Shown one piece after another: positions 27,414-58,803 of a stretch of 64,000 bases of DNA. This stretch comes from Zygnema cylindricum (lineage: Eukaryota; Streptophyta; Zygnematophyceae; Zygnematales; Zygnemataceae), in contig JBBHKE010003153.1 in assembly GCA_037447655.1 (NCBI GenBank), forward strand, positions 78,069 to 142,068, in the 5' to 3' direction. Under the pieces are notes generated by a model. The model did not search any database. It saw only the letters and a list, made by a program, of their open reading frames with translations, and was not told the origin of the DNA. Positions within the stretch are counted from its first letter, which is position 1. Each line of letters opens with the position of its first letter. A program made the translations under genes and the position numbers.

Positions 27414-30400
27414 ATGGCGTTCGTCCACGTGGCATCAATGTTCCTGTGTTTTGGTGTTATCCAAGGTGCTGATTTTTCCTCTCAGGTGGATTTTTTTTTT
27501 TTTTCAATTTTTGTTTAATTTTTTGTTTCTTTTGTTTTTGATTTCAGTTTACTGCTGGCTCGATTTTTTGTTTTTTGTTTTTTGTTTTTTTTGTTTGTTG
27601 AAGACCCAGAGCTGAAAATGTAGTCCTGTAAATTTTTTAAATTATTTTTGCTATTTTAGTTGCTTTTATTCTATTTTGTCGGTTTTCTGATATCTGAGGC
27701 ATGAATCTATTTATTGAATTCTTAAATTACATTTATTTTCATTTGCACAGCTCCAAAAAAAAAAAAAACAATTTTGATTAATTTCCCTTCTTTTAGGAGG
27801 GAAGTATAGGGGAGCGTGGTTCTAGGAGAGGTTTTTGTCTATTTGCCAAGTTAAAGACTGTCAATTTTTTGGTAAAAAAGGTGAATTAAAATGCCATTTC
27901 ATCTACTTTTCTTTTACAAAAAAATTCCCTATCAGAATTTCAAGTATGGTGACCCAAGCTATATTTTGCATTTTTCTATTTCGTAGTTAGTATTTTTTTT
28001 GAGGTATTTTTTTTTTTTGGTATTTGATTTTACTTGTGGTATTTTATTTTATTTTGTTGTATTTTTTTTTTTTGGTATTTATTATATTTTACTTTTGGTA
28101 TCACCTTTTACCTTTCAATGTCTTCACATACTTTTTGCTATTTCGATAAAAGTCCTCCATTTCCTACCAAAAGTAACGTGGATAAATAATTTTGAGAAAA
28201 GGATTTCACATTTTTGTTGACCACAATAATTGACCGGAAAGGTTTTTGTGCAAAGTACTTTTCAAAGATTAGGGGCGTACAACCCACACAATTTTTAAGG
28301 TATGGGGTTTAATGTAAGCTTAATTATTACTCCACACTAATAACGCTATACTGACGCGAGTTTTGTTAACCACACATTTGATTTCTCATGTCCTTACATG
28401 AATTAATGCGGAAAACATAAATGTGTCTTAGCATGTGTAGTGATTTAAAAGATTTGATAATTTTCCTTTGGATGTATCGTATAGCGTATAACGGGGTATT
28501 TGTCTAATAGGATTCATTGTTTGTGCGGTTCGCCCGTTACTTCTCCGTGGACCTTCTAAGCTTTCCATCATTTGACGTCAAATCTGGGTTTAGAAAAGCA
28601 AGTGTTCTCATGTTTTACGGCAATGCACCTACCGATTTTTTTTTCCTTAGACACTACATTTTGTATTGCTATTAACGTTAATGTCATTTCTGGCCTTTAG
28701 AATCAATTCTCTGTGAACACATGTGAGGATATTAATCTGTTCACATGTGAGGATATTAATCGGGGGGTTGTACTGGGAAGCTAATATTATTACCTTCCAA
28801 ACAATGGATTGAACATTTAACTGACGGGTGTGCACGGAAAAAACCTGATTTAAGTAACAACAAAAAACATTATCGTTAATAGCATCAGATGGTGTAGTTA
28901 CTAACATAGTCGCCAACATTTGTAATTCGGGGTCGACGTGGCGTCCTGATTTGCTGCTGTAGAAAATGAATAATCAGGGGTTTGAACTTGAGGCCTACTG
29001 ATTTTTGGATATAGCTTATTACCAATAAGCACTCTTCAATATGGCTTCAATCACGGCTAAATCTCGTTTACAAATATTCAACAAAATTTTATGTCGAGAG
29101 CACGAAGAGAATTATGATTATAAGTGTGTGGCATCCCATTTTGGACTTTCAACGTATGGAAGGCATAATATGGATGTAAAAATAGCTTGGCCATTGGAAT
29201 CTAGTTTTGGCCATTGTTTTCCACACTATTTTTTGTGACATCAGCAGTCGGAACCTCAAATTAGAATAATCCAAAACCTGTTAGTATAATAATTGCATTA
29301 TCCTTACAATGTTTGGGGCAAGTCTATGTATGACAAGTCTATGTATGACTACATTCCAATATATATCGTTTTGTATTTCATTATATAGTGAAATACATTG
29401 TGTTTCATTGTATGTTGTGTTGTATTTATTGTATTGTACTGTATTGCATTGCATTGCATTGTATTTCGCTGGAAATTACATTGGATTGTATCGTATCACA
29501 GGACATTATGATTAATTTCTTTTTATAATAGTGTATTGTGTTCGATTGTAACGGGTTTCATTAAACATTTCCTTTTTATTTCTTTACTTTTGCAGCGAGC
29601 TTGGAGGATTTGCTGCCTCGCCGAAATTTACTAGCCGTTGGTAAGCTTAAGTTTCTCTTTTACTGAAACTATTTTCATGCAAACACATGCTTTTGAGTAA
29701 AAGATAGAGAGTAGCTTAGATCTATCATTGTTTTTAAAATCTTAGGACAAATAAAATGCTTTACAATAGTAAATCAACAAAAACTTATGACGTATTCAAT
29801 GGAGGACTATTGCTGTCCATCTGTTCGTAGGGGCCTCCGACAATATAGAAAAAATGTACCAACATTACTGTGAATAGTAACAAACACATATCTATGAATT
29901 TGTGGGAGAAGTTAGACTTTTTGTGGAACAGGCTGTTATTTCGCAATGTTTTTTGTTTTTTTGTAAATTCGTTCCCATCCAATTAAACAAGTCTTTCGCA
30001 TGTATCAGCTGGATCGTGGTCATGCTTATCGATGATGTCATTTAATTTTACAAAATAGAATTTTAGGTGTTCACAATGACTATGCGCTTTTACAAGTACA
30101 CCGTGAATCGCTATTAGCGTTATGAAATAATTAGGGTTAAAAAAGAATTAGCGTTATTAACGCTAATTGGGAATTTGGGGATTTTCACGGAAATCATTGA
30201 CTCTAATTGGGAATTTGGGGTTTTCCAAAATAAAATTAATAATTCTATTTGAGAATTTTGGTCAAAATTTGGGGGCGCCGAAATAGCTTGATGAACGCAA
30301 ATAGCGATTCACGGTGTACATTGTATGGGAATCAGAGAGATAATTTTGACGATTTCCGCGTGGACCAAACTTTGTATTTCTGGTGATTATTCATTTTGCA

Positions 30401-33400
30401 GGTTGCGGAGCAAGTTCGAATGGGGCAAAATGCCCTTCTGGCTATTGCTGTTCAGACAGTGACACGTGTGGAAAAGATTTGGACTCCTGTGGAGGTGGCT
30501 GCCAGCTCAACTATGGAATCTGTGGTAAGTTTGCCACATGGCATTGTCATTGTTGAGAATGCACTTCAATAGCGTTTTCTGTGGAAAGCATCTGCCCCTT
30601 GTCCTTTTGTCTCATCTGATTTATACTCTGTGAAAGCACCTGCGCACTGCGATTTTGTCTCATCTGATTCCAGGCTTTCTTCTTTTGGCAGGTTGTGGCG
30701 ACCAGTGGGATGGCAATGAATGCCCTTCTGGAACTTGTTGCTCAAAAGACGGATTTTGTGGATCGAATTCCTCGTATTGTGGGACAGGCTGTCAAATTAC
30801 CGGGGGACAGTGTGGTTAGTACACGAGCCACCATTATTAGCGCGAATAACAATCGCGAGTTTGTAACCGTATTACCACAGGACTCTACCCACTACTATTA
30901 GTGCAGTTTCTAGCAGGTTTTGCAACCATGTCATCATTCATTAACCACAGAACTGCTGATGCAATTATTACCGATTGTACGGTTTTGTACTCGTTTGCAG
31001 AACAGACATTGTTCATCATTATTGGTGTGGGTCTCATCAGCATTTTACTTGTTATTATTGCTAATCCACATAAGTAGTGTTACTTGATAGAGTATTCATG
31101 GATTACGTGTATTCTATCCCAAAGCATCGATTGTACAAGACAGATTTGTACAATTCACCCTGAAAACCATGTCTAAACACCATGAGAATTCAATGTAACT
31201 GAACACTAATTAAAAAAACATGGTGAGTAAAGCTTATATAGTGTTACGACGAGGAGAACGTGGGAGTTACTGGCCAGTTGTCGTTATTTTGCAGAAAAGT
31301 GAATAAATTTTTTGTATGATTACTTCGATGACTGGCAAGTACTGGCTGTACACAATTAACCTATGAAGCCATTTTTTCAGTGATTTTGCTCCCAAGGAAC
31401 TAACTATTTTGTTATGTAAAGATCTAATAGATATAGATCTATATGAACTTTCCCTGCAATGACTCATTTTCCGTGGATGCACGGTTATGACGGCAGATTA
31501 TGGTGATAAGCTGAAGTAAAGGAATGAAAGTTTGTCAGCACAATCTGGTGTCTCTGTGACGGCCATTCAGTTGAATATTCGATTTTTTGATTCCACCGTA
31601 GAATTGTGTAACTGATGCGTGAATCCTGCCGGTTTTTCCTTTGTCAGGTTGTGGACCGAAGTTTGGAGGTGCTGTATGCCCAGAGGATTCATGTTGTTCC
31701 AAAGACGGATTTTGTGGCGGAACTTCGTCCTATTGCGGAACAGGATGCCAGGTGGCATATGGAAAATGTGGTGAGTCATCATTTTGAAGATGTCTGCGTG
31801 TTATATCACTTCTGTTCCCACCCAACAACGTCGTTTCAATTGGGATTATATATATTGTTTCAGATGACAATGTTTTATTTCCTCTTTTCCATTTTATTAC
31901 AGGATGTGGAGCAAAGTTCAATGGCACAAAATGCCCTTCCGGATACTGCTGCGAGGATAATAGCATTTGTGGAAATGATTTGAACGCATGCGGAAGCGGT
32001 TGCCAGCTCAGCTACGGCATTTGTCGTAAGTTTTTCAACAATCTTCGGGCAACGTGTCCAAACGATTCAATTTTTTTTACTTAAGATATGCTGTTAGTTA
32101 AGCCAATTGGTTTCGTTCTGCGGTAAGCTTGGCACATGGCATTGTCATTATTGAGAATGTACTTCAGTAGCGTTTTTTGTGAAATACCTCTGCATTTGCC
32201 AACTTGTCTGCATTTGCCAACTTGTCTCATCTCATTCCAGTCTTTTCGTGGAAAACACCTGTCGCTTTCCTATTGTCTCATCTGATTCTGGCTTTGTGGA
32301 AGCACCTGCCTCTTGTTACTTGTCTTATCTGATTCCACGTTTGCTTCTTTTGGCAGGTTGTGGCGATGAGTGGAGTGGCAGTGAATGCCCTTCTGGAACT
32401 TGTTGTTCAAAAGACGGATTTTGTGGATCCAATTCCTCGTACTGTGGGACAGGCTGTCAAACTACCGGGGGACAGTGTGGTTAGTACACGAGCCACCACT
32501 ACTAGTGCGGTTTGTAGCAAGTTTTGCAACTGTGTCATCATTCATAAACCACATTAATGCCGATGCAATTATTATGAATGGCACGGTTTTGTACTTTTTT
32601 GCAGAACGAACATTCATCATTATTGATGTGGGCCTTATTAGCAATTTTACTTTGTTAACGTTGCTAATCCACATATTCGCGAATTAGGTGTATTCCATAC
32701 CAAAGCATGGATTGTACAAGACAGATTTGTACAATTCACCTTAAAAACTATTTGACTAGACGAGAATTCATTGTAAATCAACACCAAAAAAAAAAACATT
32801 ATGAGTAAATCGTACATAGTGTCATAAAGAGGAGAACACGAGAGTTACTGGCCAATAAGTTTTTTTGTGTGATTACTTAGATGACTGGCAAATACCGGCT
32901 TACACAATTTCCCTATGAAGCCATGTTTTCGGTGACTTTGCTCTCAAGGAAATAACTGTTTTGCTATGTGAAGATCCGATAGATATTGATTTTCCCTGCA
33001 ATGACTCATTTTCCGTGGATGCACGGTTATGACGGCAGATTATGGTGATAAGCTGAAGTAAAGGAATGAAAGTTTGTCAGCACAATCTGGTGTCTCTGTG
33101 ACGGCCATTCAGTTGAATATTCGATTTTTTGATTCCACCGTAGAATTGTGTAACTGATGCGTGAATCCTGCCGGTTTTTCCTTTGTCAGGTTGTGGACCG
33201 AAGTTTGGAGGTGCTGTATGCCCAGAGGATTCATGTTGTTCCAAAGACGGATTTTGTGGCGGAACTTCGTCCTATTGCGGAACAGGATGCCAGGTGGCAT
33301 ATGGAAAATGTGGTGAGTCATCATTTTGAAGATGTCTGCGTGTTATATCACTTCTGTTCCCACCCAACAACGTCGTTTCAATTGGGACGATGTATGTTCA

Positions 33401-36400
33401 CAGTACAATCTTGATGGTGTTAACTAAATTCATAGGTTTGGGATTATTTTTCAAGTAATGAACCAATGAAAACTGTTGTTCTGCAACAGCCGGTGCAGCT
33501 GCAGAGGTGGAAGCCTTTGCAAAACACTATGCAGAAGCACCCAAAAAAAAATCCTTTTAGAACAACAACTTTCAGACACTGCCAAACGCAGTGAATACCG
33601 CAAAACCTTTCACACTGCACCAATGTGCAATATTCAGCATATATAGTCGACTTACAAAGTTACATGCAATATGCTTCACCACAGCAAGAGATATAATCAG
33701 TCAAAGTTACTGGAAAACTACTTTGCTGGAATTTATGTCATTCCTGAGACCTACTGATAAGACATACTGAAAATTTACGAAGTCCTAAACTGAATACTCA
33801 GAGAGAGTATAACTAATTTCTAACCAATCAGCGTCTTCTACAGTACTGTACCTATGCACCTTAAAAGAAACCATATGGTATGTAACATACGGACAAACCC
33901 AATCAATCCCAAAAACATATAAATCGTAATCCCGCACTATTTAACTAATTAGGGAAGCGGACAAACTCTTGTTTTCTCAGGTTTGGCGACTGACACAAAA
34001 TTGTATACATGACAAATGTTCCTAGTCAATGTGGTCCCATTAGAAGTCAAAGGCGGTTATTGCTCGTCCGATCTTCAAATCCGGCGGTGAGTAATCAATT
34101 ACCGTACAAGACCATTTCGGTATTTCTGCGCCTCTGGTTACCGTTCGATGTTCCGTTCGTTCTGCGAATCTTGCCACGCGTCAGTGTGTAATGTATCCGA
34201 CCTTCCAATTGATTCGTACGACTCTACATTGACTATAGACGTATCCTGAACTCCTTTCTCTAAGAGTACAAGTCAGTCTCGCACTATTTGTTGAACCTAA
34301 TGTACCAACCTATCATAAAGTATTCTAAGTCCTAGAATTCCTCTTTCACAGTACTGCCTATTAGAGGCTAAGGCTTTCCAAAAATAATAAAAACTTGAGC
34401 TTAGGATTCCAGCCACAGTGTGTTAACAATTCATTAATCCATATATGCATTGCTGTTTGAACTCTAAAAAAAACAAAGAATAAATGCAGAACACAGGATC
34501 AGTTGATGTGAACATTTTGTTGGCTTCCTATTTGATACTGTTTTGTCCTTGATAACAAAAAAAACTTGCGCCTGTTCACCTCGATTCAGTATTAGCTCTA
34601 AAACCTAATCGCGTTTTAGAGATACCTCGATGCGCGATAATAATCCACCTATAGTGGAACTTGCTCCTGTTTTGATTATTCTTTTCGGATCTCTTACAAG
34701 GATCATGTCTTCGACTGAGAATTACCATACCGTACGGTAAGTACTTTAAACTCTGTACATATTATAACTTGTAAGAAGTCAAAACATAAATTGTGGCACA
34801 ATATAGTTTTCAGTTTTCTAATTGGTTGGATTAGGTTGCTGCGAAAACCGTTCCTCTAGCCGAAGCTGCAACCACATAGAAGACCGTAAATTTGTAACAT
34901 GGGGTAATGCCAGCGCAGAGCCGTTTTTTTTTGTATGACAGCCGATACGTACGTCATAACATCAAAAATTCATATAAAATACAAAGAGTAGTAGTCTTTT
35001 TATTCCATGAGAATTACTTGTTGGGCAATTTACCAATTTTAAGTAAAGAGAAAGGAAGTTAAACAGGCCCTATGTTTGCTCCTTATGTAAACTACACTGC
35101 CCATCGCTGTTAGAGTTAATAACACTACTTCGGTCGCGACTTTTTGTGGCCAAAAATCACAAAATAGTGTTAAGAACACTATCTAAGGACGTGGACTACA
35201 ATCTGCCACATCTCCTTTGCATTAAATTAGTCTTATTAATTCTAATTCGTGTTGACATTAATAAGTCCTTAACGCTTACAACAATGGGCGTTGTAACGTT
35301 CTGTTTCAGATGACAATGTTTTATTTCGTCTTTTCCATTTTATTTACAGGATGTGGAGCAAAGTTCAATGGCAAAAAATGCCCTTCCGGATACTGCTGTG
35401 AGGATAATAGCTTTTGTGGAAATGATTTGAACGCATGTGGAAGCGGTTGCCAGCTCAGCTACGGCATTTGTCGTAAGTTTTTCAACAATCTTCGGGCAAC
35501 ATGTCTAAGCGATTCAATTTTTTTTGCTTAAGGTATGCTGTAAGTTAAGCCAATTGGTGCCATTCTGCGGTAAGTTTGGCACATGGCATTGTCATTATTG
35601 AGAATGTACTTCAGTAGCGTTTTTTGTGAAATACATCTGCATTTGCCAACTTGTCTCATCTGATTCTGGCTTTGTGGAAGGACCTGCCTCTTGTTACTTG
35701 TCTTATCTGATTCCAGGCTTTCTTCTTTTATCAGGTTGTGGCAGCCAGTGGAGTGACAGTGAATGCCCTTCTGGAACTTGTTGCTCAAAAGACGGATTTT
35801 GTGGATCGAATTCCTCGTACTGTGGGACAGGCTGTCAATTGAACGGGGGACAGTGTGGTCAGTACACCAGCCACCACTATTATCGTTTATAACAATTGCA
35901 AGTTTGTAGACGTATCACTACAGGACATTACCCACCACTATTAGTGCGGTTACTAGCAAGTTTTGCAACCGTGTCAAAACACAGTTATGCCGAAGCAATA
36001 ATTAGGGTTGGTGCAGTGTTATACTTGTTTGCAAATCGAACTCCATTCATTATTATTGATGTGGGTCTCACTAACAATTTTAATTGTTATCATTGCTAAT
36101 CCGCATTATTAGTGTTGATAGTTTATTCGCAGATTAGGTGTATTCGATACCAAGCATGGATTGAACACGACAGATTTGTACAATTTACCCTGAAAACCAT
36201 TCGACTAGACGAGAATTCAATGTAACTGAAGACTAAGTAAAAAACATTACGAGTAACGCTTTTTTTCTCTAACTTTTTGTCTTTTGAATCTTTCAGACAG
36301 TTCACCACCACCACCACGACCACCACCACCACCGCCTCCTGGACCACCACTACCACCACTACCACCACTACCACCACCACCACTATCTACACCTTCTTCT

Positions 36401-39400
36401 AGCGGTAACTCCTTAACAGGAAGACTCTTTTACTTTTATAACATAACACAATACGCAACAATATTACCATTTGTATTTTCCGGGTCATTAGGGTGTTTTT
36501 AGGGTATTTTAAGGTTTTTTCAGGTTTTCAAGGTTTCTAAGTGATGAAGTGTTTGGTTTTTGTGGCGTTCTAAATGTTGTACGCGAAGATCTGGATTTTT
36601 TGTCATTTTCAAGATAGGGTTTGCAAATATCTTCTTGATTGTCATTTTATATCACTCTGTTATGCGATAGATGTCTTTCTTTTGACATGGAATAGCTTTC
36701 TTTTTCCGCTCTTACACTGACCCTTGGAATAGTGGTGGTGGATTTAGAGTTATTCAGGGTGTTTGAAGGGGGTTTTTTAGACATTTAAACCTTAGGTTAT
36801 TTTTAAATGACCAAATCTGAGCTGCCTTTTTGTGAACCTTCAATTGTTGTTTGAGTCAAGAACCCTAACACAGTCTTGTGTCTCGTTGACCCAAAGCTGT
36901 GAAATAGAATGCAACACCGCTAATCGTTATTAGTGGTAAAGTAGTTCTCGCCACTTTTCTTTGTGCACATTTGTCGGATTGTCAATCGGAGACCACCAAT
37001 AGGAAGGTTAGAATCTTGCCTTCCAATAGCAACCATCGGATTGACAATCTGACAAGTTTTCACGAAAAAAATATGTTTTAAGTAGCAAAAATAACTTTAA
37101 CACTAATAACGATTAGTGGTGTAGTTAAAAGAGTCGCGGCTAACCAGCTACACAATCCAACCCTAGGTTGACACCAAAACCGCATTTACACCACTAATCC
37201 ACTCCTATTTTATTTTCGCTATTCCATTCATTTCTAGTCAAAAAAGCCTAAATTTGTCTAGTTCTATTGGTAGCTCTACCAAGCTCTACATAGAGTATAG
37301 AGTTGGTTATGTGGCTGCTCAATACCACATGTTTGTGTCTACTTAGGCCGGACTTCCATTAGGCGGTCTTAATAATCTTGCCGAATCCTCCATTAGGTCA
37401 GTGATATCTTGTCGAATCCTCCATTAGGTCAGTGATATCTTGCCGAATCCTCCATTAGGTCTAGTCAGTAAACAACCTCTCACCTACGTGGTTCATTCGG
37501 GTTGTATCGGTTAGTAATTTGAGATACTTAATGTTACTAACTGATTTTAAACAACAAACTTAACAAATTTAACCAGCATGCGTGTGCAACATGTGGCAGG
37601 CAAAAATAAACCCCTTTTGATTGGAACCATCTCGGGGTCCACTGCGGTCGTCATTTCACTTTTAGCCTTGATTGGCTGTTGCTATTTTCATCGTTACCGA
37701 AGTGAGGATCAAACCCTAAAACCTGTGTTTTTCTTAGTTACCGGATACCATAATTATTCATTTGCTCTTCATTGTGGACTAGACGGACTTTATGTGAACA
37801 TAAATCTGTATCCATGTCACTGTTTACCAAGGTGATTCTAATGGGGACCCCTTAGAATCATGAACATGCATCACACGGAAGACCTATTGACCCTCCAATT
37901 CGAATATGCAAAGAAACATATTTATGCAAACAATATTTTCATCATTTGTGTTGTTTTAATTGTAATTATCTTTCTTTGGTGATTGAGCCCAAAGCACGCA
38001 CCAAAAATGCAAATTCAAAATATTTTCATATTGCTCCCTGAAGGTTCCACTTGGCCGTTTGTAATCGTCAACTCCTACATTTTTTTTTCTCATTTTCTCT
38101 GATGCTTACATCTATAATAAATGTGACTGGCCTTGAAAAAACATGGAATAGAGTGGGCTCAATCTTATATCCTTTCCGCCAACATCTTTCAAACTCCATG
38201 AAGTAGCTTCTTAAATTTTTTGAAATCTATAACATTTTGTGGAAGTAAACATGTAGGAGTGTTAGAATGTACAATAGTATCTTCATTAGACTTATCATTG
38301 CCTTATAGTGCAGTCAAGGTCCACATCTGATTGACAGTTTGGCAGTGTGTTCGAACCTGAATTTGCAAATTTCTAAAAACGTCAATACGAAGGAAAACGT
38401 ATGCTACCATATTAAAATATTTCAAGAACTATTCTTAGTCCGGTTGTTGTTTTGTTGTCAGTATGGTATATTTCTTGTTTATAGTAAACGAATGTTGCAT
38501 TGCACTTTTCTACCATATCAAGATTAATTTTTTCTACAAACATATTATATTTTTTTGAAACATTTGGAAAGTTCCTTCACAAGAAACATGTAAAAAGGAC
38601 TAAAGAATCGTCGGTCGCTTATTCGTAATTATGATGGTTGGACTCCAGGAAAAGAAGTACGTCGTGAAAGAAAGCACCTCGTGAAACGAATTTCCCTCTC
38701 AGATATTACGGCAGCTACAAATAACTTTAGTAAAGACAATATACTTGGACAAGGAGGCTATGGCACTGTATATGTAGGAGTGACAGAGGATGGAGAGAAG
38801 TGGGCGGCGAAGAGGGCAATTAACGCCTCCATTATGAGCTTACCAGCTTTTGAGCAGGAGGTAAGGAGATCCACAAGTACACCGTGAATCGTTATTAGCG
38901 TCAATGTTTTTTTCGCCACTTAAAACATCTTTTCTCCGTACACACTTGTCGGGTTGTGGATCTGACGGTTGCGATTGAAAGGTAAGATTCTCAGCTTCCG
39001 ATTGGCAGTCTCAAATTGAAATCCGACAAGTGTGTACGGAGAAAAGATGTTTTAATTGGCGAAAAAAACATTGACGCTAATAACGATTCACGGTGTAGTG
39101 AATGGAAGAACGTCTATTTGGATTGCCAAAGTGTTCTAGTTATGAGTTACATGAATACGTCAAGTTCAAAAACGCATGTGAGTGTCCATAAAAGTAAACC
39201 AGAATTGAAATAAACCGTTTCACGGTAACATCTGCAGTTTAAGGTCTCCTCCATTAACACCACTAGAGCTATGGCTGGAAGCTTAGGATGGCCTTAACAA
39301 TTTTCTGCCTTAAAGCCAATCATTTCTGATCATTCCTAATCATTTCCCTATCTGCTTGCACTTGAGGTTGAAGACGCCATCCACTGTTATCGGAAAGTTT

Positions 39401-42400
39401 AGGTTATCGTGTTTAAGGTTGTGGTCGTTGCCGAAGATGAAACAAGTATCATTGATACATAGTATAAGTGAAAGTAACTCTGAATTGAAGATGATTGTCT
39501 GTCTATGACATATTTTACAGGTGGACATTATCTCTCAAATGAGCCACACCAATATTGTTCAACTCCTGGGATATTGCGATGAAGGCTCCGAGCAGATTCT
39601 TGTGTACGAGTTCATGGAAAGGGGCAGTTTGAAAAAACTTCTGCATGATGAAGAAGGTTTACTGGGCACATGATAACCCTAGTTTCCCTTACACAAATTA
39701 AGCATCATTTCCTCAAATTGTTTCAACTTCTTCATATTGAAAATTTATAATCTAGCACAGTAAATCATCTTTGTGTATTATAAAAATAGACCACCCAACT
39801 TAGTATGTCTAAAGCAAGAACATCTGCTGAAATTATGCTAATTATAGTGGTGAAAGCCATTGTTAATGCCACACAAATGATGGCATATAACTTAGCAATA
39901 TGCCGAATTGGTGAGATAATATGCTTCAAATGTTAAAGCCTTCATACAGAAACATTTTTTGCGGATTTTTGGTCAGACTATACAGTCAATACGAAGACGT
40001 TATTTGACCAACTGTTGCATTATTTTCAAACGGTTTAGCTGCGCAAAGCCGGGAATGTTTGAAGAACTGTTTTCGATTAAAGATATTTGGTCAGAATCGG
40101 ATAAGAATTAGGCGATTCTTCCCGATTTTGACCAAAATATCGAGTAACATTCTGTAAACATCCCTTCAACATTAAAAAACATCCAGGAAATTCACTTACA
40201 TTAAAATCAATATTTTTTCTTATTTACTCAAGACTCATATTTTCGTTTACACCCTCCAATCTGATTATGTGATTCTACTCTTGTCCTTCTGGGTTTTATC
40301 AAGAATATCATATAGGCTCCTAAGAGCTAACTTGGAAGACTCTCCAAGTAACTTTTCATATATTAATGCAGTGGAGTTTCCCTAACATTCCAGTTGTTGT
40401 GTGGTTATTGGTGATGGTGTAGGGGAAAGCTTAACATTCCAACAAAGGGTGGCAATAGCAATTGATGTCGCAGAAGGCCTTCGTTATTTGCACCACTATG
40501 CGGGAGCCACCGCCATTCACCGAGATATTAAGTCCGACAATATTCTGGTCAACTCCAAATTCAAGGTGTTGCCTCAAATCATTATCCCCGCTTTCATTTC
40601 TTTTAATGAAAAGAAATTGAGGCAAATTAAATCGTTCTGGTAATGTCGCAATAATATTGTCTTGCTTCAAGTACTTAACTGTGTCTCTTCTTGTGTTTCT
40701 ATTACCAAAGCTAATTTATCGGGAAAGCTTTGTCTGGTCCTATCTATTCTGTTTTTGAGTGCACGGAATTTAGTGTGGCTAGTCAATCCTCTATGCATGT
40801 TTTTCTCCTCGATGTCATTTGAAAGGATCTCACACAAAAATCAGAGTGCAAGACTACAGCGGAAGCATGCATAAAAAAAACAATTCACACGAGAATGAAC
40901 TGTCCACAAAAGCCAATATATTTCATAGACATTTTCTCCCATAAAATATTAACTTCCTACTCCCTCTAAGCTGCAATATATAGTACATTTACTGGGACGT
41001 CACTACTTCAAACTACAAATCAACCCAAATCATATAGTGCGCACTAAGTGCGTACAAGTCAAATTGCGTCAACAACGAAACACAAAGAACTGCCGGTACA
41101 ACTCACACGTACAACCAAAACTAACTAAAGACAAAACGCACATACCAACCGTACACTCCAAACGAAACATAACCTGGACGTCGTCAAACAAAATCTCCGT
41201 GAGACCACAAAACTACAATCCGTACTACACGACTTAATAAAACCACCCTGGACCACTAACTCCACGTAAAGACAAATAAGCCCACTAACTTAACGTAACG
41301 ACAAATTAGCCAGCCGCGCGACAGGCGCGACGGCCGATTACAAACTTTGACTTAACAATCCCCCTCTCAAACTTGTAATCATCACATCAAACCTAATTTA
41401 GGTCTCCCCCTCAAAATTACATTATGAGCCGCGGCTTTTGTCAACATATCCACGGCTTCCTCCAACGTTGAAACATACAAAAACTCAACTTCCTTTGCTG
41501 TGACCAAATCGCGTACGAAGTGCCACTGAATCCTAATATGTTTTGTCCTTTTGTGAAAGACAGGATTCTTCACCAATGCCATCGAACTCATGCTGTCAGA
41601 AAATATTTTCTTACAACCAATTGAAATCCCTAATTCTCCAAGTAGTTCTTTAATCCAAATCGATGCCTTAGACGTATGACACGCAGCCATATATTCTGCT
41701 TCGGTTGAACTTAATGCGACAGTTGGCTGGAGTCGCGAACTCCAAGAAATTGCCGCGCCACCAAAGACAAAAGCATATCCAGACGTTGACTTTCCTGTAT
41801 CAAAATCTCCACCCCAATCTGCGTCACAATATCCCACGCACTCCAAAGATGTCCGTCCAGATCGGAACAATAAACCAATCTCGACCGTACCTGCAAGGTA
41901 ACGAAATATCCTCTTCACGGCCTCCCAATGAATCTTTTTAGGAGCCTGACAAAATCGGCTCACGACAGAAACTGCGGCTGAAATATCCAGTCGCGTGGCC
42001 ACACTTAAATACATTAAACTTCCAACGGCCTCACGATAGGGCACGTGGACAGTTTCCTCCTCCTCAAATTTGCCCCACTGGAGTTGCTAGTGAGTTTGGT
42101 ATTAGCATCCAAGGGGGTAGAGGCGGGTGTGGAGTTGCTAGTGAGTTCGGTATTAGCATCCAGGGGGGTAAAGGCGGGTGTGCAGTTAGACATAGAAAAC
42201 CTATCTAAAATTTCAACAATGAATTTGTTCTTTAGAGAGGTAGAGGGTTCTGGTTTGCTGTATCACGACTTACTAAGATCCTGAGGCAATACTCTAACTC
42301 TCCTAAGTTTGCAAAGAGAAATGAGAGTTGAGCATATGTTCGAGATGGTGATGATGATAAGGGTCTCATATTTACCTCGGATGAATATGCCGAAATCTGC

Positions 42401-45400
42401 AGACAATTTGAAGAATCCTTCGCTAAAGAGAGAGCAGGCTCTAAACGCGGGGAGCTTATTTTAGGCCGTATAAGGACTTCAGGAGGCGATAGACGCGAGG
42501 AGCTTGTTTTAGGCCGTATAGGGACTTTAGGAGGCGGCAGTCGAGGTGCTTTGTGCTAGGAGAAATGTGTCCTTCCGGTTGCCGAATGAAGATTTCCTCT
42601 TGAAGGTCACCGTAAAGGAAGGCAGTCTGGGCGTCCATCTGATGGACGTCCATCCCAGTCTTGGGAGACAGTAAGTGGGAGACGGCAAGTGAGAGTGGGA
42701 GACGGCAAGTGAGAGGAGGATGCAGAGAGAGGCAAATTTTGCGACCGGAGCATATGTCTCGGTAAAATCTAGGCCTTCTTTTTGGAGAAAACCCTTGGCG
42801 ACAAAGCGGGCCTTGAAGCGGTCAAAGGAGCCATCTGCCTTGGTTTTAATGCAAAAAACCCACTTTGAGTCTATGGCTTTGCGGCCAGGAAGGAGAGCAG
42901 TCAGGTGCAAGGTGCCATTTTGCTTTAAGGAGGCAAATTCGGCATCTGGAGGGAGAGTAGCCATTTTGCTTTAAGGAGGCAAATTCGGCATCTGGAGGGA
43001 GACGAGTCAGGTGCCACGTGCCATTTTTCTTTAAGGAGGCAAATTCGGCATCTGGAGGGAGGGTAGCCATTTTGCTTTAAGGAGGCAAATTCGGCATCTG
43101 GAGGGAGACCAGTCATGTGCCACGTGCCATTTTTCTTTAAGGAGGCAAATTCGGCATCTGTAGCGACCTTCTAGGCTACAGCATCGAGACCAACTAGCAC
43201 CCGAGAAGGATGAAGGAACATCGGAGGTGGCGATGTCGGCAACTCCATGGGAATTTGGAGTTGTCCGTGCTTCAATGCGAGCACTTTTGCAAACAGCGGG
43301 TGGCTGGTCTGGGGAAAGGATAGATGAAATGTTGTAGGGAGGAGCAGATGGTGAGATGGGAGAGAGGGAGTATGGGTCAGAGACTATTCTGGCAAGAGGA
43401 AGTGAACCAAAGAAGGGGGGTGGGACAAATATAGTCCGGTTAAGTAAGGGTAGAGTGGGTAAAAGAGGAGGTTGGGGAGAAAAAAGAGGAGAAAAGAGGG
43501 AATAGGCTGGAGTTGGAAAATGAGGGATGGGAAGATGAGACGATGGAGGAGGGCTAGCAGAGATTAGTTTGAGAACAAGGGGTTTTTCATCAAACGTGAC
43601 GTCACGACTTAAAATGATACGCCGTTTGTATGGAGTCAAATTTGGTAAGCTTTGGATTCGGTGGCATAGCCGACCAAATATCGAGAATTGGCACGATTGC
43701 TCAACTTGTGCTGAAGAGTGAGGTCTTTTGCCCAAGCAATGCTTCTGAATATTCGTAAGTGAGAAACGTCCGGTTTTTGGCCTATTCATGCCTCGTGTGG
43801 GGTGAGGATTGGAACAGCTTGGGTAGGACATAAATTCCGAAGGTAGTTCGTTGTAGTGACTGCTTCGCCCGAGAACATAGGTGAAAGGAGGGCGAAGTGT
43901 AACATGGATCGACCCATGTCGCGAGAACATAGGTGAAAGGAGGGCGAAGTGTAACATGGATCGACCCATGTTGACGACAATATGGTTATAATGTTGCGAG
44001 ACTCCGTTATGTTGGGGAGTAAGGGTGTCGTAGTTTGATGCACGATTCCATAAAGTGAGAGGAACGAGGAAAACTCTTTGGAGCAAAACTCCCCGCTGAT
44101 GTCAGTTCGGAGGATTTTGATGCGACAGTTGTGATGATTCTCAACTTTCGCTTTAAAAGTTTGGAATGTAGCAAAAGTATCAAATTTGCGACATACAAGG
44201 TGCAGGTGACTGTAACGAGTAGCGTCGTCAATGAAAATTACGAAATACATTGCTCCATTATGACTTGTGTTGGACATTGGTCTACATAAGTCAGAATGGA
44301 TTAAGGAAAGTGGGCTTTTGGATTGTGTGGTGCTTGAAAGAAATGACGATCGTGGAAATTTTCCTTCGATGCATCCAGTACAAAAAGGGATTTTTCTGTT
44401 CATAAGAGAATCCAATCCTGTGACAAGGCCTTTTGATAATTGGTGAAGGCTAGGACCGGAGAGAAGGCCGTAGCGTAGTTGCCATTTGGAGAGGGTGATA
44501 TGTGGTGAAGAGATGGCGACGTTGGCAGATCCAACGGAATAAAAAGAGGAGAGAATATAAACGTCTCCTTGTTTTACTCCTGTTCCAACTGTTTGGTTTG
44601 TGTGAGTTAAAAAGTTAACATGATTGGAGGAGAATACGGCCGTAGCTCCTTGATGTAATGCCGCGCCGACGAAAATAGATTCTTTCGTAGAGCAGGGACA
44701 AAAAAGACGTTGGTGAGTTTAATGATGGCATGATTTGGGGATCGACTGGGAGTGTTGGTTTGGCCAACGTGCGTCGTTGTAAGGGCGGCGTTATTGCCAA
44801 GGAGAATTGGCATTAGAGGGCTGAGTGGGGCGATGGAGACAAACCAATCGGAACGTGAAGATAGATGGTGGGAAGCACCGGAGTCAACTATCCAATTGTT
44901 GTCAAGTACAGTTGGTGATGGTACAGACTCAGTGGAGCTGAAAACTGTCGGCACGCGAATCCAAAATCGGATTGCGTTAGTGGAGCCGAAGGGTTTACAT
45001 CGACCGTTGGAGGAATGGGCGAAGATGGATGGCCAAGAGCGTAAAGTGGATATGATTGGGCGTATCCGGGATGATGTGAGATGGATTGATCTGACGGAGG
45101 AGGATTGGCGTAATGGTACGGTTGGGCGAGAGGGTTGGTTAGAGGAAATTGAACATCCGAAACTGTGGCTTCAGCGGAGGAGGCTTGACCTTGATATGGT
45201 CCACGACCTCCTAGGTGACCTCGCCCACCCGTACAGCCTGGTCCTCCTTGAAGATCATTTTTCCGTTTGAGAGCCGGACAGAAATCAATCGTGTGATCAA
45301 TCGCTCGGCAATAGCGACAAGTGGTAGAGGAGGATTTTGATGGCTTGGGATTGGTGGAAATCACTGCCAAAGCAACGATTGGCTTGTTTTGAAATGATTG

Positions 45401-48400
45401 CTTCATCTCCTCATGGACCAAGCGAGCCGTTAAAGTGGGAATGGTTAACGTAGTTGGAGAATTGTCAAGAGAGAAATTAAGGGACGAATAGGAGTCCGAC
45501 AAACCACCAAGGATTGTCGAGATAAGATCATCGTCGGAGATCTTCGCATTAATACTCTTGAGCTGTCCTGCCAAGGATTTCAGATGCTGAACATAGATCT
45601 GAATAGAATCGGTTGGTAGCTTTTTGTAAGAGTTGAGCTGTCGCTTGAGGAATAACTTATTAGACCAAGATTGATTTTCGTAAGCAGAGGTCAGAAGTGA
45701 CCATGCTTCGTGAGCCAAAGTGGCGTCGCGGATAATGTCAATCTTAGATGACTCAAGTGCGAGAACAAGCCGAGAGTGGGCTTCTTCGTTGCGAGCAAGC
45801 CATTTGGTTTTTTCGGCAGCATCTATAGGTTCAATCTCGCTGCCACAGGTGATTGACCAGAGTTATTCACAGCGCAACAAGTGCTCGATCTGATATTTCC
45901 ATCCGTAAAAGTATGAGTCGTTAAAATTTGCAACGGTATTGGCGTTGGACGGCCCATAACCTATTAGATTAGAAGTCATGGCAACAGAAATAGAGTGGAA
46001 GATAAATGGTAGCCTGAAGTATAAGTCTTTTTAATTGATTACAATAAGAAGACAAAACAGAGTTTAAGTAGGAAAGGGAAAATACTCTGAGAGTGACCTC
46101 TCTGAAGCTGGAGGAACTTTCCTAACCTGAAGGGTCACTTGACCCTTCACTCAAAAGAATCCGGTCAAGATTTATAAGCAGATCTTTGACCAGATTCTAT
46201 TCTGACTGTACTTGAGGTACGCAGGTAAAACAGATCTGACAGGATACAAAAACAGATCTGACAAGACAGACTAGCAGACAGAATTACTGTTATGATACTA
46301 GAACATGGTCGTCGTCAAACAAAATCTCCGCGAGACCACGAAACTACAATCCGTACTACACGACTTAATAAAACCACCCTGGACCACTAACTCCACGTAA
46401 AGACAAATTAGCCCACTAACTTAACGTAACGACAAATTAGCCAGCCGCGCGACAGATCGCGACGGCCGACTACAACTTTGACTGAAAAAGACAAACTAGC
46501 TGGCCGCTTGACAGACCGCGACGGCCGATTACAAACTTTGACTTTACAATTTTGTTACGTATTTGAGAGGTCTGAAGTTGCTTATATCCCGATTGGAATA
46601 TTCTATTGGTTGTACTTATGTATTGTCCCGGTAATGGCAACACTCGATGTTAAGCTGATTACTACACCGCTCATCGTCATTTGTGTTAAAGTTGTTTTCG
46701 CTATTTAAAACATCTTTCTCTGTGCACACTTCTTGGATTGTCAATCGGAGACGAAAAATAGGAAAGTGAGAATCTTGCCTTTCAATAGAAACCAGCGGAT
46801 TGACAATCTGACAGGTGTGCACGAAGAAAAGATGTTTGAAGTGGCGAAAAAAGCTTTAACACTAATGATGCTGAACGGTGTAGTTGTTTTTTGAGCTACT
46901 ATTCACGTAAATATTAAAATGTTTCGAGAATCTTGTTTTGTGACTAAGTGGAAGTTGTTTTGGGTTGGGATTCCTTTTACAGGGAAAACTTGCAGATTTT
47001 GGTCTGATGAAGGACAACCCAGCGGACAAGACTGAGGTTGCCAACAATGTCGAAAGTACGGAAGCTCCAGGGTACACGAAGTTAAATTCGAGCAAATATA
47101 ATGACGACTCTGGAAAAACCAGAATTGCCGGAACTCCAGGATACATTGATCCTGCTTATTTGAAAACATTCCAAGTCACTAGAAAAAGCGACGTGTACAG
47201 GTCAGCAAAACCCTGTCCTTGTCGTAGGAATTGTAGTAGTGATTTGAAATGGCGACAATAGATATTTTGAGGCATGTGTGGCATGTGCGACAAGTTTTTC
47301 CTGCAATAAATTGATATCATTTTTGTAGGGATGCTCACCAAGAAGTACGAGTGATTCTGTGTAGCTTTTGTTTGATGGGTAGAGTTATAAGAGATGGGAC
47401 TCTTTTCCTAAAATGGGCTCTTTTTCTAAAATGGACTCTTTTTCTAAAATGGACTATTTTCCTAAAATGGTCTCTTTTTCTAAAATGGACTCTTTTTGGT
47501 GTATGTACGAAATGAAGCTTTGGCGTGGTCCTCTTTGAGCTTATCACTGGAAGGAGAGCGCTTGTGAAGGACGACTCGGCTCCGGAAAATGATCCCACTT
47601 TGGATACTTTGGTGCACTGGGTGAGTAAAACCGGGAGGCAAATATAACCCTTTTTAGCAGGCAATTAAGTTGCTATGGTTGTTCCCAATGTGACTGTTCC
47701 TTTTTCCTTTTTTTTGCTGGCTCCTAAACCTCTATTGATGGAATGAATCTTTTTCATTTCTTTCTATCGTGAAACAGCAACACCTTAAATATGATCTCAC
47801 ATAGTCCCATGTCTAATCAGTTTCTTTGTAAGCGTTTATCGATATTCGAGTGAATTTGGGAAATCCTTTGTCATGCCGTAAACAGATTTTGTACATACTG
47901 TTCATGACTGCCCTGCTTTCGTTTAAAATCACTAAAGTTGAAGTTATGGACTAAAATTTCCGGTTAGCTGTCCAAATCCGTCCATTTCCTAAGACTCGTA
48001 ACTTTGTCGGCTGTATGGCAAAACTCTATTTTTTGACTATAACATATAGAGAAACAAATCCAGATACTTTGCCTTCTTTATGAGCTCCAAACCCTATTCT
48101 TCACATTGGAGGCAATTGTTTTGTTCTTTCTCCCGTCTCTCCATCACTTGTAAATATGAAAATTATCTCTTCAAAAATGCGGTGAATGCACAGATGTTTC
48201 ATGTTTTTCAATCATAGAAAAATTAAAAATTTTAACCCTAAGGTATGACTGCCAAATATGGGAACAAATGGAGGTCTTGCATTCGCCAGATATTCTTACC
48301 GGAATAATTCCCAAATGGTGTATATTCTTAAAATATGCGGTGACTATGCTTTCATGCAGAAGGATGCAAATAGTAAATTATAGTAACAGATGATAAATAA

Positions 48401-48777
48401 TAATAAATAGTGATAAATAACTAATGGAATTGGGGAAACTTGAATGCTTGGTACAGATTCAACCTCATCTGAAACAAATCGAATCGATTGTCGATCCCAA
48501 AATTGATGGAAAGTACCATCCAGAGGCTTTAAGGAAACTCACACGATTGGCTATTATCTGCACCGAGAAGGACCCAGAAAGCCGCCCGACTATGGAGGAA
48601 GTTGCCCAACTTTTGGCACAAATAAAGAACACATTGTTGGACAAACAAGCCATAGATTTGAATGATAACGATGAACGGGAGACTGCCGATACTTCCCCGA
48701 AACGGTTTCCCATCACTGTAGGGACGTCTGATTCCAATTTTATTGTGCCCATATCTCAAACCGTTGGGCCCCGGTAG
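27414..48777 (+). CDS. Receptor-like kinase with eight tandem hevein (ChtBD1) domains
   Basis: Proposed exons: 27414-27465, 29596-29640, 30402-30524, 30692-30814, 31648-31770, 31903-32025, 32357-32479, 33190-33312, 35350-35472, 35735-35857, 36297-36404, 37600-37701, 38598-38860, 39521-39656, 40423-40565, 46983-47200, 47518-47620, 48457-48777. All use GT-AG and are phase-compatible, giving 2475 nt, 824 residues. Residues 1-18 form a signal peptide (MAFVHVASMFLCFGVIQA), 33-360 eight Cys-rich domains, 361-396 a Pro-rich stalk, about 402-424 a membrane helix, and about 475-780 a protein kinase. Known: hevein domains bind chitin or related GlcNAc polymers, and RLK kinases signal from the plasma membrane. 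Inferred: a cell-surface receptor for a chitin-like ligand. Weakest calls are exons 1-2 and the acceptors at 38598 and 47518, which lack pyrimidine tracts. I do not recognise a named orthologue. Confidence 0.85.
28657..28894. mobile_element. TA-flanked MITE copy 1 (hevein-kinase intron 1)
   Basis: Inverted ends 'tattgctattaacgttaatg' and 'cattatcgttaatagcatca', with TA on both sides (28655-28656, 28895-28896). The most diverged member of the family. Confidence 0.6.
29395..29490 (+). repeat. (TTGTA/TTGCA)n microsatellite
   Basis: Pentanucleotide-like run of gtatt/gcatt units in intron 1; the 68-residue open frame over it is incidental. Confidence 0.7.
30099..30316. mobile_element. TA-flanked MITE copy 2 (intron 2)
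   Basis: Ends CACCGTGAATCGCTATTAGC and its near-perfect inverted partner (gcaaatagcgattcacggtg), flanked by TA at 30097-30098 and 30317-30318. The interior differs from copies 4-6. Confidence 0.85.
31449..31845 (+). repeat. Direct repeat copy 1 around the first C-type hevein exon
   Basis: 397 bases that appear identical to 32991-33387, offset 1542. It includes the C exon plus flanking intron. The surrounding A and B exons of the two cassettes differ at several sites. Confidence 0.88.
32991..33387 (+). repeat. Direct repeat copy 2 around the second C-type hevein exon
   Basis: Partner of 31449-31845. Similarity stops abruptly at 33388, where a 1.9-kb insertion begins. Confidence 0.88.
33388..35301. 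other. 1.9-kb insertion in the C2-A3 intron
   Basis: The equivalent intron after C1 is only 132 bases (31771-31902). Here the same intron is interrupted after 'caattggga' and resumes at 'tgtttcagatgac'. The inserted DNA contains one MITE copy (35095-35293) near its right end. The rest is unrecognised AT-rich sequence without a coding domain. Confidence 0.7.
35095..35293. mobile_element. TA-flanked MITE copy 3 (intron C2-A3)
   Basis: Ends CACTGCCCATCGCTGTTAGA and inverted 'ttaacgcttacaacaatggg...ttg'; TA at 35093-35094 and 35294-35295. Diverged copy. Confidence 0.6.
36915..37121. mobile_element. TA-flanked MITE copy 4 (stalk-TM intron)
   Basis: Ends CACCGCTAATCGTTATTAGTG and inverted partner CACTAATAACGATTAGTGGTG. 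TA follows at 37122-37123; the left TA is mutated to AA. The interior has the shared 'gcacatttgtcggattgtca' stem. Confidence 0.82.
37377..37461 (+). repeat. 31-bp tandem repeat, nearly three copies
   Basis: Unit 'cttgccgaatcctccattag' + 'gtcagtgatat'; copies start at 37377, 37408 and 37439 (partial). Lies in the intron before the transmembrane exon. Confidence 0.9.
38880..39095. mobile_element. TA-flanked MITE copy 5 (first kinase intron)
   Basis: Nearly complete hairpin: CACCGTGAATCGTTATTAGC at the left, its inverted partner at the right, and 'tccgtacacacttgtcgg' pairing with 'ccgacaagtgtgtacgga'. TA at 38878-38879 and 39096-39097. It begins only 19 bases after the donor site at 38861. Confidence 0.88.
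41175..41357 (-). repeat. 3' LTR of copia element D
   Basis: 183 bp. Aligns with 46306-46548 with few mismatches but lacks a ~60-bp internal duplication present in the 5' LTR. Confidence 0.82.
41382..42190 (-). pseudogene. Copia D RT C-terminus and RNase H
   Basis: Open over about 220 codons: PYREAVGSLMYLSVATRLDI, GYCDADWGGDFDTGKSTSGY (RNase H Asp), ALSSTEAEYMAACH, FHKRTKHIRIQWHFVRD, and a LTKAAAH tail. Just upstream (42060-42190) the TPLDANT(E/K)LTSNS linker occurs twice in tandem. Confidence 0.92.
42190..42455 (+). other. Foreign segment replacing the RT catalytic core of element D
   Basis: At this place a copia RT should encode the YVDD motif on the minus strand. Instead about 265 bases are unrelated, and the + strand has an open, protein-like reading with DDDKGLIFTSDEYAEIC and QFEESFAKERAGSKRG. 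Source unknown; possibly a captured host or other-element fragment. Confidence 0.45.
42456..42964 (-). pseudogene. Copia D reverse transcriptase N-terminal half
   Basis: RVT_2 start: AIDSKWVFCIKTKADGSF, KARFVAKGFLQKEGLDF, ETYAPVAKFASL, then in another frame MDVHQMDAQTAFLYGDLQEE and SLYGLKQAPRV. The RLLKSLYGLKQAPRV block is duplicated in tandem (42460-42545). Confidence 0.9.
42945..43165 (-). repeat. Tandem duplications of the PPDAEFASLK segment in element D
   Basis: The ~55-85 base unit 'aaggaggcaaattcggcatc' + 'tggagggag' recurs four to five times, encoding repeated PPDAEFASLK(Q/E)NG(T/Y) at the linker-RT boundary. Confidence 0.9.
43166..44440 (-). pseudogene. Copia D integrase and linker
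   Basis: Integrase: FCTGCIEGKFPRSSF (zinc-site Cys pair), SLIHSDLCRPM (first Asp), IKILRTDISGEF (second Asp), and an NGVSQ-type segment in place of the usual NG.AER with Glu. A Pro/Ser-rich linker follows (43200-43700). A ~53-base tandem duplication at about 43870-43975 ('gagaacataggtgaaaggag' unit) disrupts the core. Confidence 0.85.
44607..44960 (-). pseudogene. Copia D aspartic protease
   Basis: Contains NNWIVDSGASHHLSS, the DSGA active-site motif of copia proteases, followed by a glycine/hydrophobic stretch and the VFFVPALRKNLFS junction before integrase. In frame with gag upstream. Confidence 0.88.
44961..45979 (-). pseudogene. Copia D gag
   Basis: Starts with ATG at 45977-45979 (MTSNLIGYGPSN), contains NDSYFYGWKYQIEHLL, one stop at about 45866, then AHEAWSLLTSAYENQS, the UBN2-like helical capsid region, and a CCHC knuckle CRYCRAIDHTIDFC near 45290-45330. 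Apart from the single stop, gag and protease form one frame. Confidence 0.9.
46306..46548 (-). repeat. 5' LTR of copia element D
   Basis: 243 bp, with two copies of a ~60-bp block 'cagccgcgcgacag(at)cgcg' / 'tggccgcttgacagaccgcg' where the 3' LTR has one. Confidence 0.82.
46675..46880. mobile_element. TA-flanked MITE copy 6 (HRD-DFG intron)
   Basis: Ends CACCGCTCATCGTCATTTGTG and inverted 'cactaatgatgctgaacggtg', TA at 46673-46674 and 46881-46882. The interior stem 'tgcacacttcttggattgtc' is shared with copies 4 and 5. Ends about 100 bases before the DFG exon. Confidence 0.82.
47396..47497 (+). repeat. 18-bp tandem repeat beside a kinase exon
   Basis: Six copies of 'ggactctttttctaaaat' ending 20 bases before the acceptor of the exon at 47518. 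It supplies most of the pyrimidine-rich sequence ahead of an otherwise weak acceptor. Confidence 0.9.
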
Positions 48778-49939: not shown

Positions 49940-50515
49940 ACGCGGCGAAGGAGAGGGAGAGGGAGAGCGAAGGAGAGGGAGAGGGAGAGGCAGGAAGAGG
50001 GAGAGGGAGAGGGAAGGAGAGGGAGGAGGGAGAGGGAGAGGGAAGGAGAGGGAGAGGGAGGGGGAGGGTGAGGGAGGAAAAGGGAAGGGGAGAGAGGGAG
50101 AGGGAGAGGGAGAGGGAGAGGGAGAGGGAGAGGGGGGGAGAGGGAGAGGGAGAGGGAGAGGGAGAGGGAGAGGGAGAGGGAGAGGGAGAGGGAGAGGGAG
50201 AGGGAGAGGGAGAGGGAGAGGGAGAGGGAGAGGGAGGGAGAGGGAGGGAGAGGGAGAGGGAGGGAGAGGGGGAGAGGGTGAGGAAAGGAGAGGGAGGGGA
50301 GGGAGAGGGGGAGGGAGAGGGAGAGGGAGAGGGAGAGAGGGAGAGAAAGGAAGGGGGGGAGAGGGAGGGGAAGGAGAGAGGAGGGAGAGGGAGGGGGAGA
50401 GGGAGAGAGACGGAGGGAGAAGGTGAGAGGGGGGGAGGGGGGGAGGGATGGAGAGGGAGAGAGAAGGGGAGACGGAAATGCAGGAAGGGGGGGGGGGAGG
50501 GAGGGACAGAGGGAA
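49940..50515 (+). repeat. (GGGAGA)n polypurine tract, ~575 bp
   Basis: Almost pure purine run of GGGAGA/GAGGGA units on the + strand. The 220-residue Glu/Gly/Arg open frame over it is an artefact of composition. Confidence 0.95.
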
Positions 50516-53025: not shown

Positions 53026-53035
53026 NNNNNNNNNN
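53026..53035. other. Assembly gap (10 N)
   Basis: Ten undetermined bases; true size unknown. Confidence 0.99.

Positions 53036-58570: not shown

Positions 58571-58603
<33 letters not shown>

Positions 58604-58771: not shown

Positions 58772-58803
<32 letters not shown>

Follow-up and report, generated by a model that had tools for sequence, protein, structure and literature searches.

The window analyzed here is a 64,000-nucleotide (nt) stretch of Zygnema cylindricum DNA (contig JBBHKE010003153.1, positions 78,069 to 142,068), and our subject is a gene on its forward strand at positions 27,414-48,777. The gene is predicted to encode a receptor-like kinase (RLK) whose ectodomain is an array of eight hevein domains. 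A preliminary description had read the region as a phase-consistent frame of 18 exons, 824 residues long, joining a signal peptide, eight hevein domains, a Pro-rich stalk, a membrane helix, and an RD kinase. We could rebuild this frame from the sequence: GT-AG borders are present in 17 of 17 introns, the phases agree, and the final TAG is the only stop. The length had to be changed, because one acceptor was corrected from paralogues, and the protein now measures 807 residues.

Exon 1 (27,414-27,465) holds the start codon and the core of the signal peptide (MAFVHVASMFLCFGVIQ) and has counterparts in the hevein paralogues (L015 450 and L018 722); exon 2 (29,596-29,640; SLEDLLPRRNLLAV; phase 1-1) is matched at L015 2763. 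The eight hevein exons that follow, exons 3 to 10, encode domains H1 to H8. Each is 123 nt long, in phase 1-1, and encodes eight cysteines, and the spacing C-x8-C-x4-CC-x5-C-x6-C-x3-C-x6-C, the pattern of the eight-cysteine fold, recurs in all eight. Type B is represented by H1 (30,402-30,524), H4 (31,903-32,025), and H7 (35,350-35,472); type A by H2 (30,692-30,814), H5 (32,357-32,479), and H8 (35,735-35,857); and type A' by H3 (31,648-31,770) and H6 (33,190-33,312), which are identical to each other. Against the Pfam profile Chitin_bind_1 (PF00187), the protein scores 169.7 bits in all (E 1.4e-50), with five stretches significant individually. Around H3 and H6, the segments 31,449-31,845 and 32,991-33,387 are identical over 397 base pairs (bp), and their flanks are abruptly dissimilar. 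Recent conversion within the hevein array would explain this identity, as would a local copy made by the assembly.

Exon 11 (36,297-36,404; phase 1-1) encodes the Pro-rich stalk and is the first exon of the kinase cassette, and exon 12 (37,600-37,701) encodes a single membrane helix, placed by the Kyte-Doolittle maximum at residues ~402-421. The kinase itself is spread over exon 13 (38,649-38,860; juxtamembrane segment, glycine loop, and catalytic Lys), exon 14 (39,521-39,656; N-lobe and hinge), exon 15 (40,423-40,565; HRDIKSDN), exon 16 (46,983-47,200; DFG and a long activation loop), exon 17 (47,518-47,620; C-lobe), and exon 18 (48,457-48,777; C terminus, tail, and stop). A signal peptide and one membrane helix, judged by hydropathy alone, give the protein the layout of an RLK, and the glycine loop, Lys, Glu, HRD, and DFG of a Pelle-type RLK are all present. 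The Pfam Pkinase score is 149.3 bits; NCBIfam returned generic kinase matches only, each under its cut-off, and the closest PDB sequence matches include the SymRK, BRI1, FERONIA, and CERK1 kinases. No LysM domain is among the gene's Pfam matches (E ≤ 0.001), which separates it from the LysM receptor kinases (CERK1/LYK). Nor is there a legume-type lectin (L-lectin) ectodomain among these matches, or a remnant of one in the window, so that it does not qualify as an L-type lectin RLK either.

The corrected acceptor is that of exon 13, which the length first proposed would place at 38,598. An AG stands at the position equivalent to 38,649 in all six aligned kinase paralogues, and the segment upstream of it contains in-frame stops in four of the six (one on contig C1655 and three copies on contig C1883 of the same genome). 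As predicted from these paralogues, the true acceptor is 38,649 and not 38,598.

Two parent families and the join between them

The gene was compared with its own genome (G000), a draft of 353 Mb in 2689 contigs in which the window's contig is labelled C2364; 26 stretches were fetched. The hevein search gave 31 matches on 14 contigs. The kinase search, with 112 of 712 candidates scored, gave at least 139 matches on 59 contigs. Among the matches listed, C2364 is the only contig common to both. The hevein contigs C739, C1216, C1712, C2172, C2236, C170, C272, C1713, C41, and C2580 are absent from the 59 contigs of the kinase matches listed, and C513 has no kinase match in the 16 kb read of its 52 kb.

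The hevein half of the gene is homologous, introns included, to genes on C270 (L015 and L016; 10 hevein exons) and C2586 (L018, L019, and L021; 7 hevein exons). All 17 of these exons share the length, phase, and AG/GT sites of those in the window, and the signal exon and the B-A-A' order are common to the three contigs. All of the hevein-half exon sequence aligns to each of the two (1081/1081 nt; 87.7% identity to C270 and 86.2% to C2586), and none of it (0/1081) aligns to the lectin-kinase loci, which served as the control. Of the 7980 non-exon bases in this half, 6224 and 5954, respectively, align as well (75-78%). The difference lies downstream, where C270 and C2586 lead from hevein exons into exons of a papain-family (C1A) protease and the window gene leads into a kinase. 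Four protease exons were found in C270, which joined together score 129.4 bits against Peptidase_C1, and three in C2586. The fetched stretches of these contigs contain no credible kinase match, the single one (E 8.2) being noise. The idea that the hevein sister genes are receptors too was therefore rejected for these stretches. The hevein-array/papain-protease architecture is unusual in its own right; in the available parts of the literature on hevein combinations, a C1A protease is mentioned together with LysM.

Homologues of the kinase half lie on C1883, C1655, C1214, and C2055. These share its stalk, helix, kinase, and tail, but upstream of these parts they carry a legume-type lectin exon in place of the hevein array; six such exons occur in the examined loci of the family. 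Of the 1343 exon nt in this half, 1313 align to C1655 (88.6% identity), 1322 to C1214, and 1021 to C2055, whose last exon lies outside the fetched stretch; the control count against the hevein loci is again zero (0/1343). Non-exon sequence aligns over 4346, 4678, and 3136 of 11,167 bases for C1655, C1214, and C2055, respectively (28-42%, in a half that includes a Copia element). In both halves, the aligned non-exon sequence is 82-85% identical, and matches to the wrong parent amount to 336 and 450 bases, as expected of dispersed repeats.

On C1655, an L-lectin, stalk, helix, and kinase form one intact frame of 683 residues, whose first exon was not found (Lectin_legB, 109.7 bits). This gene has the same exon order and phases as the window gene, and its lectin exon, like the hevein exons, has a phase-1 end. 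Lengths agree between the two genes for the helix exon and for all but one of the six kinase exons; that one, the first, measures 209 nt against 212 nt in the window, and the stalk exon is 81 nt against 108 nt. From stalk to stop, the window gene thus agrees with the genome's lectin-kinase family in exon order, phases, and intron homology. Intactness was shown for no lectin-kinase copy other than that on C1655: one stop interrupts the lectin exon on each of C2055 and C1214, and the C1883 copies have frameshifts, a stop, or a lost site in their kinase exons. The legume-lectin family as a whole is large in this genome (83 matches), with matches at, for example, C2586:766128-790479, and some members lie ~95 kb from the C2586 hevein-protease gene.

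The two homologies meet inside the phase-1 intron that separates H8 from the stalk. In pairwise alignments, the parent changes in the last bases ahead of the stalk exon: hevein-parent homology reaches ~36,261, and lectin-kinase homology starts at 36,263-36,267, which puts the breakpoint (36,261-36,267) 30-36 bp 5' of that exon. A query of 471 bp across the join, searched against the whole genome with 20 of 20 candidates scored, returned 24 matches, and the window alone spans the join from end to end. Matches on the hevein side stop at query positions 246, 307, 312, 312, and 325. Those on the kinase side begin no earlier than 314, the lectin-kinase genes at 314 or 318 and other Pro-rich stretches after 337. 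Divergence from the parents is alike in both halves, at 11-14% in exons and 15-18% in other sequence (figures flattered by taking the best match per base), and two halves equally far from their parents fit one event.

On these alignments, the gene is in all likelihood a chimera of a hevein-array/C1A-protease gene and an L-lectin receptor-kinase gene. This apparent fusion of two gene families, with its junction still readable, is the main point that goes beyond the preliminary description. Recombination between two unrelated genes, within phase-1 introns, would have created the gene; the hevein-protease parent would have supplied the upstream region, signal peptide, and hevein array, and the lectin-kinase parent would have supplied the Pro-rich stalk, helix, kinase, and tail.

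Intactness and alternative accounts of the structure

Ratios of nonsynonymous to synonymous substitution rates (dN/dS) for the hevein exons are 0.33 against C270 and 0.38 against C2586, each summed over four exon pairs, and individual pairs with the parents give values between 0.22 and 0.52. Among pairs inside the array, H2-H8 stands at 2.42, from very few changes. For the kinase, dN/dS is 0.34-0.52 against six copies, calculated with the old acceptor, which leaves the first few codons of exon 13 compared out of frame. Not one of the 807 codons is a stop. At 0.05 substitutions per site, a neutral simulation yields 5.8 stops, and 1% of its runs yield none; the neutral expectation is 5.8-14 stops at 0.05-0.13 substitutions per site. 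We also built two trees of kinases, the first with 35 rows and the second, by maximum likelihood, with 41 kinases; their rows were hand-picked from the matches and partly exchanged between trees. The branch of the window kinase is not lengthened in either (0.023 versus 0.042-0.085 in the first; 0.056 versus 0.054 in the second).

Several points weigh against a single functional gene of chimeric origin. Pairwise dN/dS mixes the window's branch with those of its parents, so that the case for constraint since the fusion depends chiefly on intactness. At the junction, the match at C270:380352-380654 (71%) extends to query position 325, a few bases beyond the proposed break. If the donor of exon 10 is left unused, the frame runs for 11 more residues to a stop at 35,890, which would make a hevein-only protein possible. 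The full-length protein search gave no near-identical match attesting expression among the 120 of 337 matches listed. In the kinase, the glutamate of the APE motif is replaced by Ala (IDPAYL), as it is in the paralogue on C1655. Finally, a Copia-type long terminal repeat retrotransposon of at least 5.3 kb (41,171-46,455, minus strand) sits in the intron between exons 15 and 16. Its direct repeats of 154 nt (41,171-41,324 and 46,302-46,455) are 97% identical, its outer ends are not fixed, and its profile scores are 104.9 bits for gag and 37.2 bits for integrase. The intron on either side matches C2055 (at 40,688-40,818 and 46,549-46,658). The insertion appears fairly young and to have left the exons intact.

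Two adjacent genes that are never spliced together, a hevein gene minus its protease end and a kinase gene minus its lectin exon, might produce the same layout. The origin of the halves from two different gene families would suit such a pair, as would the possible hevein-only end at 35,890. Yet the phase-1 GT donor of H8 is kept in paralogous hevein exons, a stalk exon with an acceptor and a fitting phase lies just 440 bp downstream of H8, and both halves are intact. Moreover, neither a start nor a signal peptide for a separate kinase gene was found in the model, and tblastn of the window found no lectin or C1A remnant. We regard the two-gene account as highly improbable, and the gene structure makes it very likely that the hevein array and the kinase are made as one transcript. 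The intact 18-exon model, its domains, and its paralogues all speak for the earlier proposal that one predicted gene joins a hevein array to a receptor kinase.

The fused gene might still be the product of two loci misjoined at 36.26 kb, given a draft genome of 2689 contigs and a gap of 10 Ns at 53 kb in the window. However, that gap (53,026-53,035) is the only N run of the window and lies outside the gene, with none near the join. Beside the join, each side matches its own parents only, so that no shared repeat is seen to mislead an assembler. The halves are 11-18% diverged from C270, C2586, C2055, C1655, and C1214 and are therefore not copies of those loci, and splicing and phase are preserved at the join. 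We consider such an artefact extremely improbable. Alternatively, the fused gene could now be decaying as a pseudogene, a fate consistent with the stops or frameshifts of several kinase-family paralogues and with the Copia element in its own intron. Against this stand 18 exons without the stops expected under neutrality and without broken splice sites, together with a kinase branch no longer than those of the paralogues, and decay is highly improbable. The account that we favor, a single functional membrane receptor kinase with a multivalent hevein (N-acetylglucosamine [GlcNAc]-lectin) ectodomain, born of such a recombination, is probable.

Elsewhere in the window, positions 36,954-37,126 and 38,875-39,099 have matches on other contigs too, those of the second segment in both orientations, and probably represent a dispersed repeat resembling miniature inverted-repeat transposable elements. 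An open reading frame on the minus strand (8,717-9,241) matches DUF659 (54 bits), a domain presumably often found in hAT-type transposases. Long purine-rich low-complexity arrays occupy 49,950-50,504, 58,073-58,818, and 59,414-59,561, where long open reading frames on both strands are probably not genuine.

Hevein sites and candidate ligands

We take the contact sites of hevein to be Ser19 and the aromatic residues at 21, 23, and 30. Five of the eight domains (H2, H3, H5, H6, and H8) have Ser19, Phe23, and Tyr30, with Asp at site 21. The other three retain one or none of the site residues (S, S, T, and S at sites 19, 21, 23, and 30 in H1; E, N, I, and A in H4; E, N, F, and A in H7), and none of the eight domains has an aromatic residue at site 21, which speaks against a GlcNAc-binding array. 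In a comparison set of 268 motifs from 48 of 240 proteins, sites 21, 23, and 30 are aromatic in 53%, 93%, and 69% of motifs, respectively, and four motifs have no aromatic residue at these sites. Asp occurs at site 21 in 18 of these 268 other motifs. The nearest solved structures by sequence include lectin-C, the Arundo donax lectin, and wheat germ lectin, and one domain of the Arundo donax lectin has Asp at the place of site 21. From these residues, the five sites would be weak but usable, and little would be left of the other three; the multivalency of the array could make up for this.

A GlcNAc polymer has, in our estimate, an even chance of being the ligand, and chitin sensing by the gene is plausible on the residues described above. 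The protein could also be a real receptor whose ligand is not chitin, such as another GlcNAc glycan (peptidoglycan, a glycoprotein, or a wall glycan) or a protein. We give this somewhat less than an even chance: Asp at site 21 in five domains, the loss of most of the site in three, and the joining of the sister arrays to proteases rather than chitinases would agree with it, whereas the retention of Ser19, Phe23, and Tyr30 in five domains and the presence of Asp21 in other hevein motifs, including one in the Arundo donax lectin, do not. Were the favored receptor to bind a chitin-type GlcNAc polymer, it would do so mostly via H2, H3, H5, H6, and H8. The protein would span the plasma membrane, with the Pro-rich stalk holding the hevein array out in the wall; a multivalent ligand would cluster receptors, and trans-phosphorylation by the RD kinase would signal through the pathway of the lectin-kinase parent. 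LysM chitin receptors (CERK1/LYK) are wall-facing sensors of GlcNAc polymers with a cytoplasmic RLK kinase. The window protein would do the same job, and the CERK1 kinase is among the structural matches of its kinase; it differs in having no LysM domain.

Kinase relatives and known systems

In the 41-kinase tree, the window kinase groups with that of C1655 (support, 100/100) inside a clade of 11 (100/97). This clade includes the leucine-rich repeat (LRR) receptors P0187, P0229, P0204, P0247, and Closterium P0245; its further members are Closterium P0243, P0201, the LysM receptor P0249, and the L-lectin receptor P0241. The clade's named members all come from Closterium, so that a zygnematophyte or a close relative would be the likely source of the genome. 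Sister to the clade in this tree, with weaker support (85/89), is the hevein kinase P0002, which does not fall near it in the resolved part of the 35-row tree. Outside the clade fall the land-plant L-type lectin receptor kinases (L-LecRKs), the Marchantia hevein kinase, and the Closterium kinase P0242. Five named land-plant L-LecRK kinases and P0251 form a separate group (100/99), to which the window kinase does not belong. The 35-row tree agrees on the window's clade and puts the L-LecRK IX.2-like P0231, absent from the 41-kinase tree, beside FERONIA. We had considered that the window kinase is a land-plant L-LecRK, as its paralogues carry legume lectins, and the 41-kinase tree rejects this; the pairing of lectin and kinase here looks independent of the land-plant L-LecRKs on the basis of that topology. 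The look of the C-terminal tail had also suggested a kinase of the CERK1/LysM type that exchanged its ectodomain. This was tentatively rejected, leaving room for deeper kinship: the PDB matches are generic for RLKs, and the trees, which do not include CERK1 itself, place the window kinase in a clade that contains LRR, L-lectin, and one LysM receptor.

A Pro-rich stretch before the helix is clear in six of the nine outside members of this clade (P0187, P0229, P0241, P0243, P0245, and P0249) and not in P0201, P0204, and P0247; as predicted from these sequences, the stalk is common in the clade and not universal. Within the genome, PAN-like exons replace the lectin upstream of the same helix exon, on the same strand, on C2379 (two; L023 and L024), C440 (L025), and C2176 (L026). 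Two of the three units on C2379 score 26.7 and 26.2 bits against PAN_2 (cut-off, 21.1), and the third scores 13.7; on C440, the second PAN-like unit changes frame and the last kinase exon has a stop. In this one genome, the kinase cassette is thus found behind L-lectin, PAN-like, and hevein exons. The LysM receptor kinase P0249 is possibly another swap. We tentatively propose, with a confidence just short of even, a receptor cassette system in an algal lineage next to land plants. A stalk/helix/kinase cassette, entered via a phase-1 intron, would acquire sugar- or protein-binding ectodomains through recombination (LRR, LysM, and L-lectin types in the clade as a whole; L-lectin, PAN-like, and hevein types in one genome), and the window gene would be a fresh hevein swap giving a chitin-type sensor independent of the LysM route.

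The preliminary description knew of no plant receptor with eight tandem hevein domains, a statement that needs qualifying. Hevein kinases as such are not new: the available part of a 2019 survey (PMC6362431) mentions, for ferns, Chlorophyta, or Marchantiaceae, the combination of kinase or glycoside hydrolase (GH) domains with hevein domains numbering more than two. Two proteins with both hevein and kinase domains appear among the best 120 of 337 matches of our full-length protein search. One, Marchantia polymorpha MpRLK-Pelle_SD-2b6 (P0007), likewise combines a kinase with several hevein domains; it differs in having four hevein motifs and a kinase that groups with SD-2/LRK10L, far from the window's. 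The other, the EukProt hevein kinase P0002, has five hevein motifs, Pro-rich stretches, and a kinase, but its Pro-rich spacers stand between the domains, and all five motifs have aromatic residues at 21, 23, and 30; its best local alignment with the window protein is 35% identical. GH18-kinases such as tobacco CHRK1 also place a chitin-related ectodomain on a plant kinase, according to the available part of PMC5485988; there the ectodomain is a member of the GH18 chitinase family and not a lectin array. The word hevein is absent from the available parts of PMC5485988 and PMC10834447, and the hevein rows seen in a table of PMC5485960 list no kinase. Among the titles and abstract openings of the open-licence literature searched, no paper describes a fusion of a hevein array with this kinase or a junction of this kind. 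Among lectin receptor kinases, the window gene is a variant.

The intact L-lectin kinase frame on C1655 and the 83 legume-lectin matches bear on a wider question. In the available part of PMC10834447, LysM- and L-lectin-RLKs are held to be exclusive to embryophytes, and ectodomain swaps are inferred from trees. Given an algal source of the genome, the two observations would contradict that exclusivity for L-lectin RLKs.

Trees of old proteins are the usual basis for inferring how receptor kinases gain new ectodomains. Here, the donor families, the break within an intron, and the product are all found in one genome, which makes this route of shuffling directly testable. If the protein binds chitin, it would represent a hevein-based alternative to LysM sensing.

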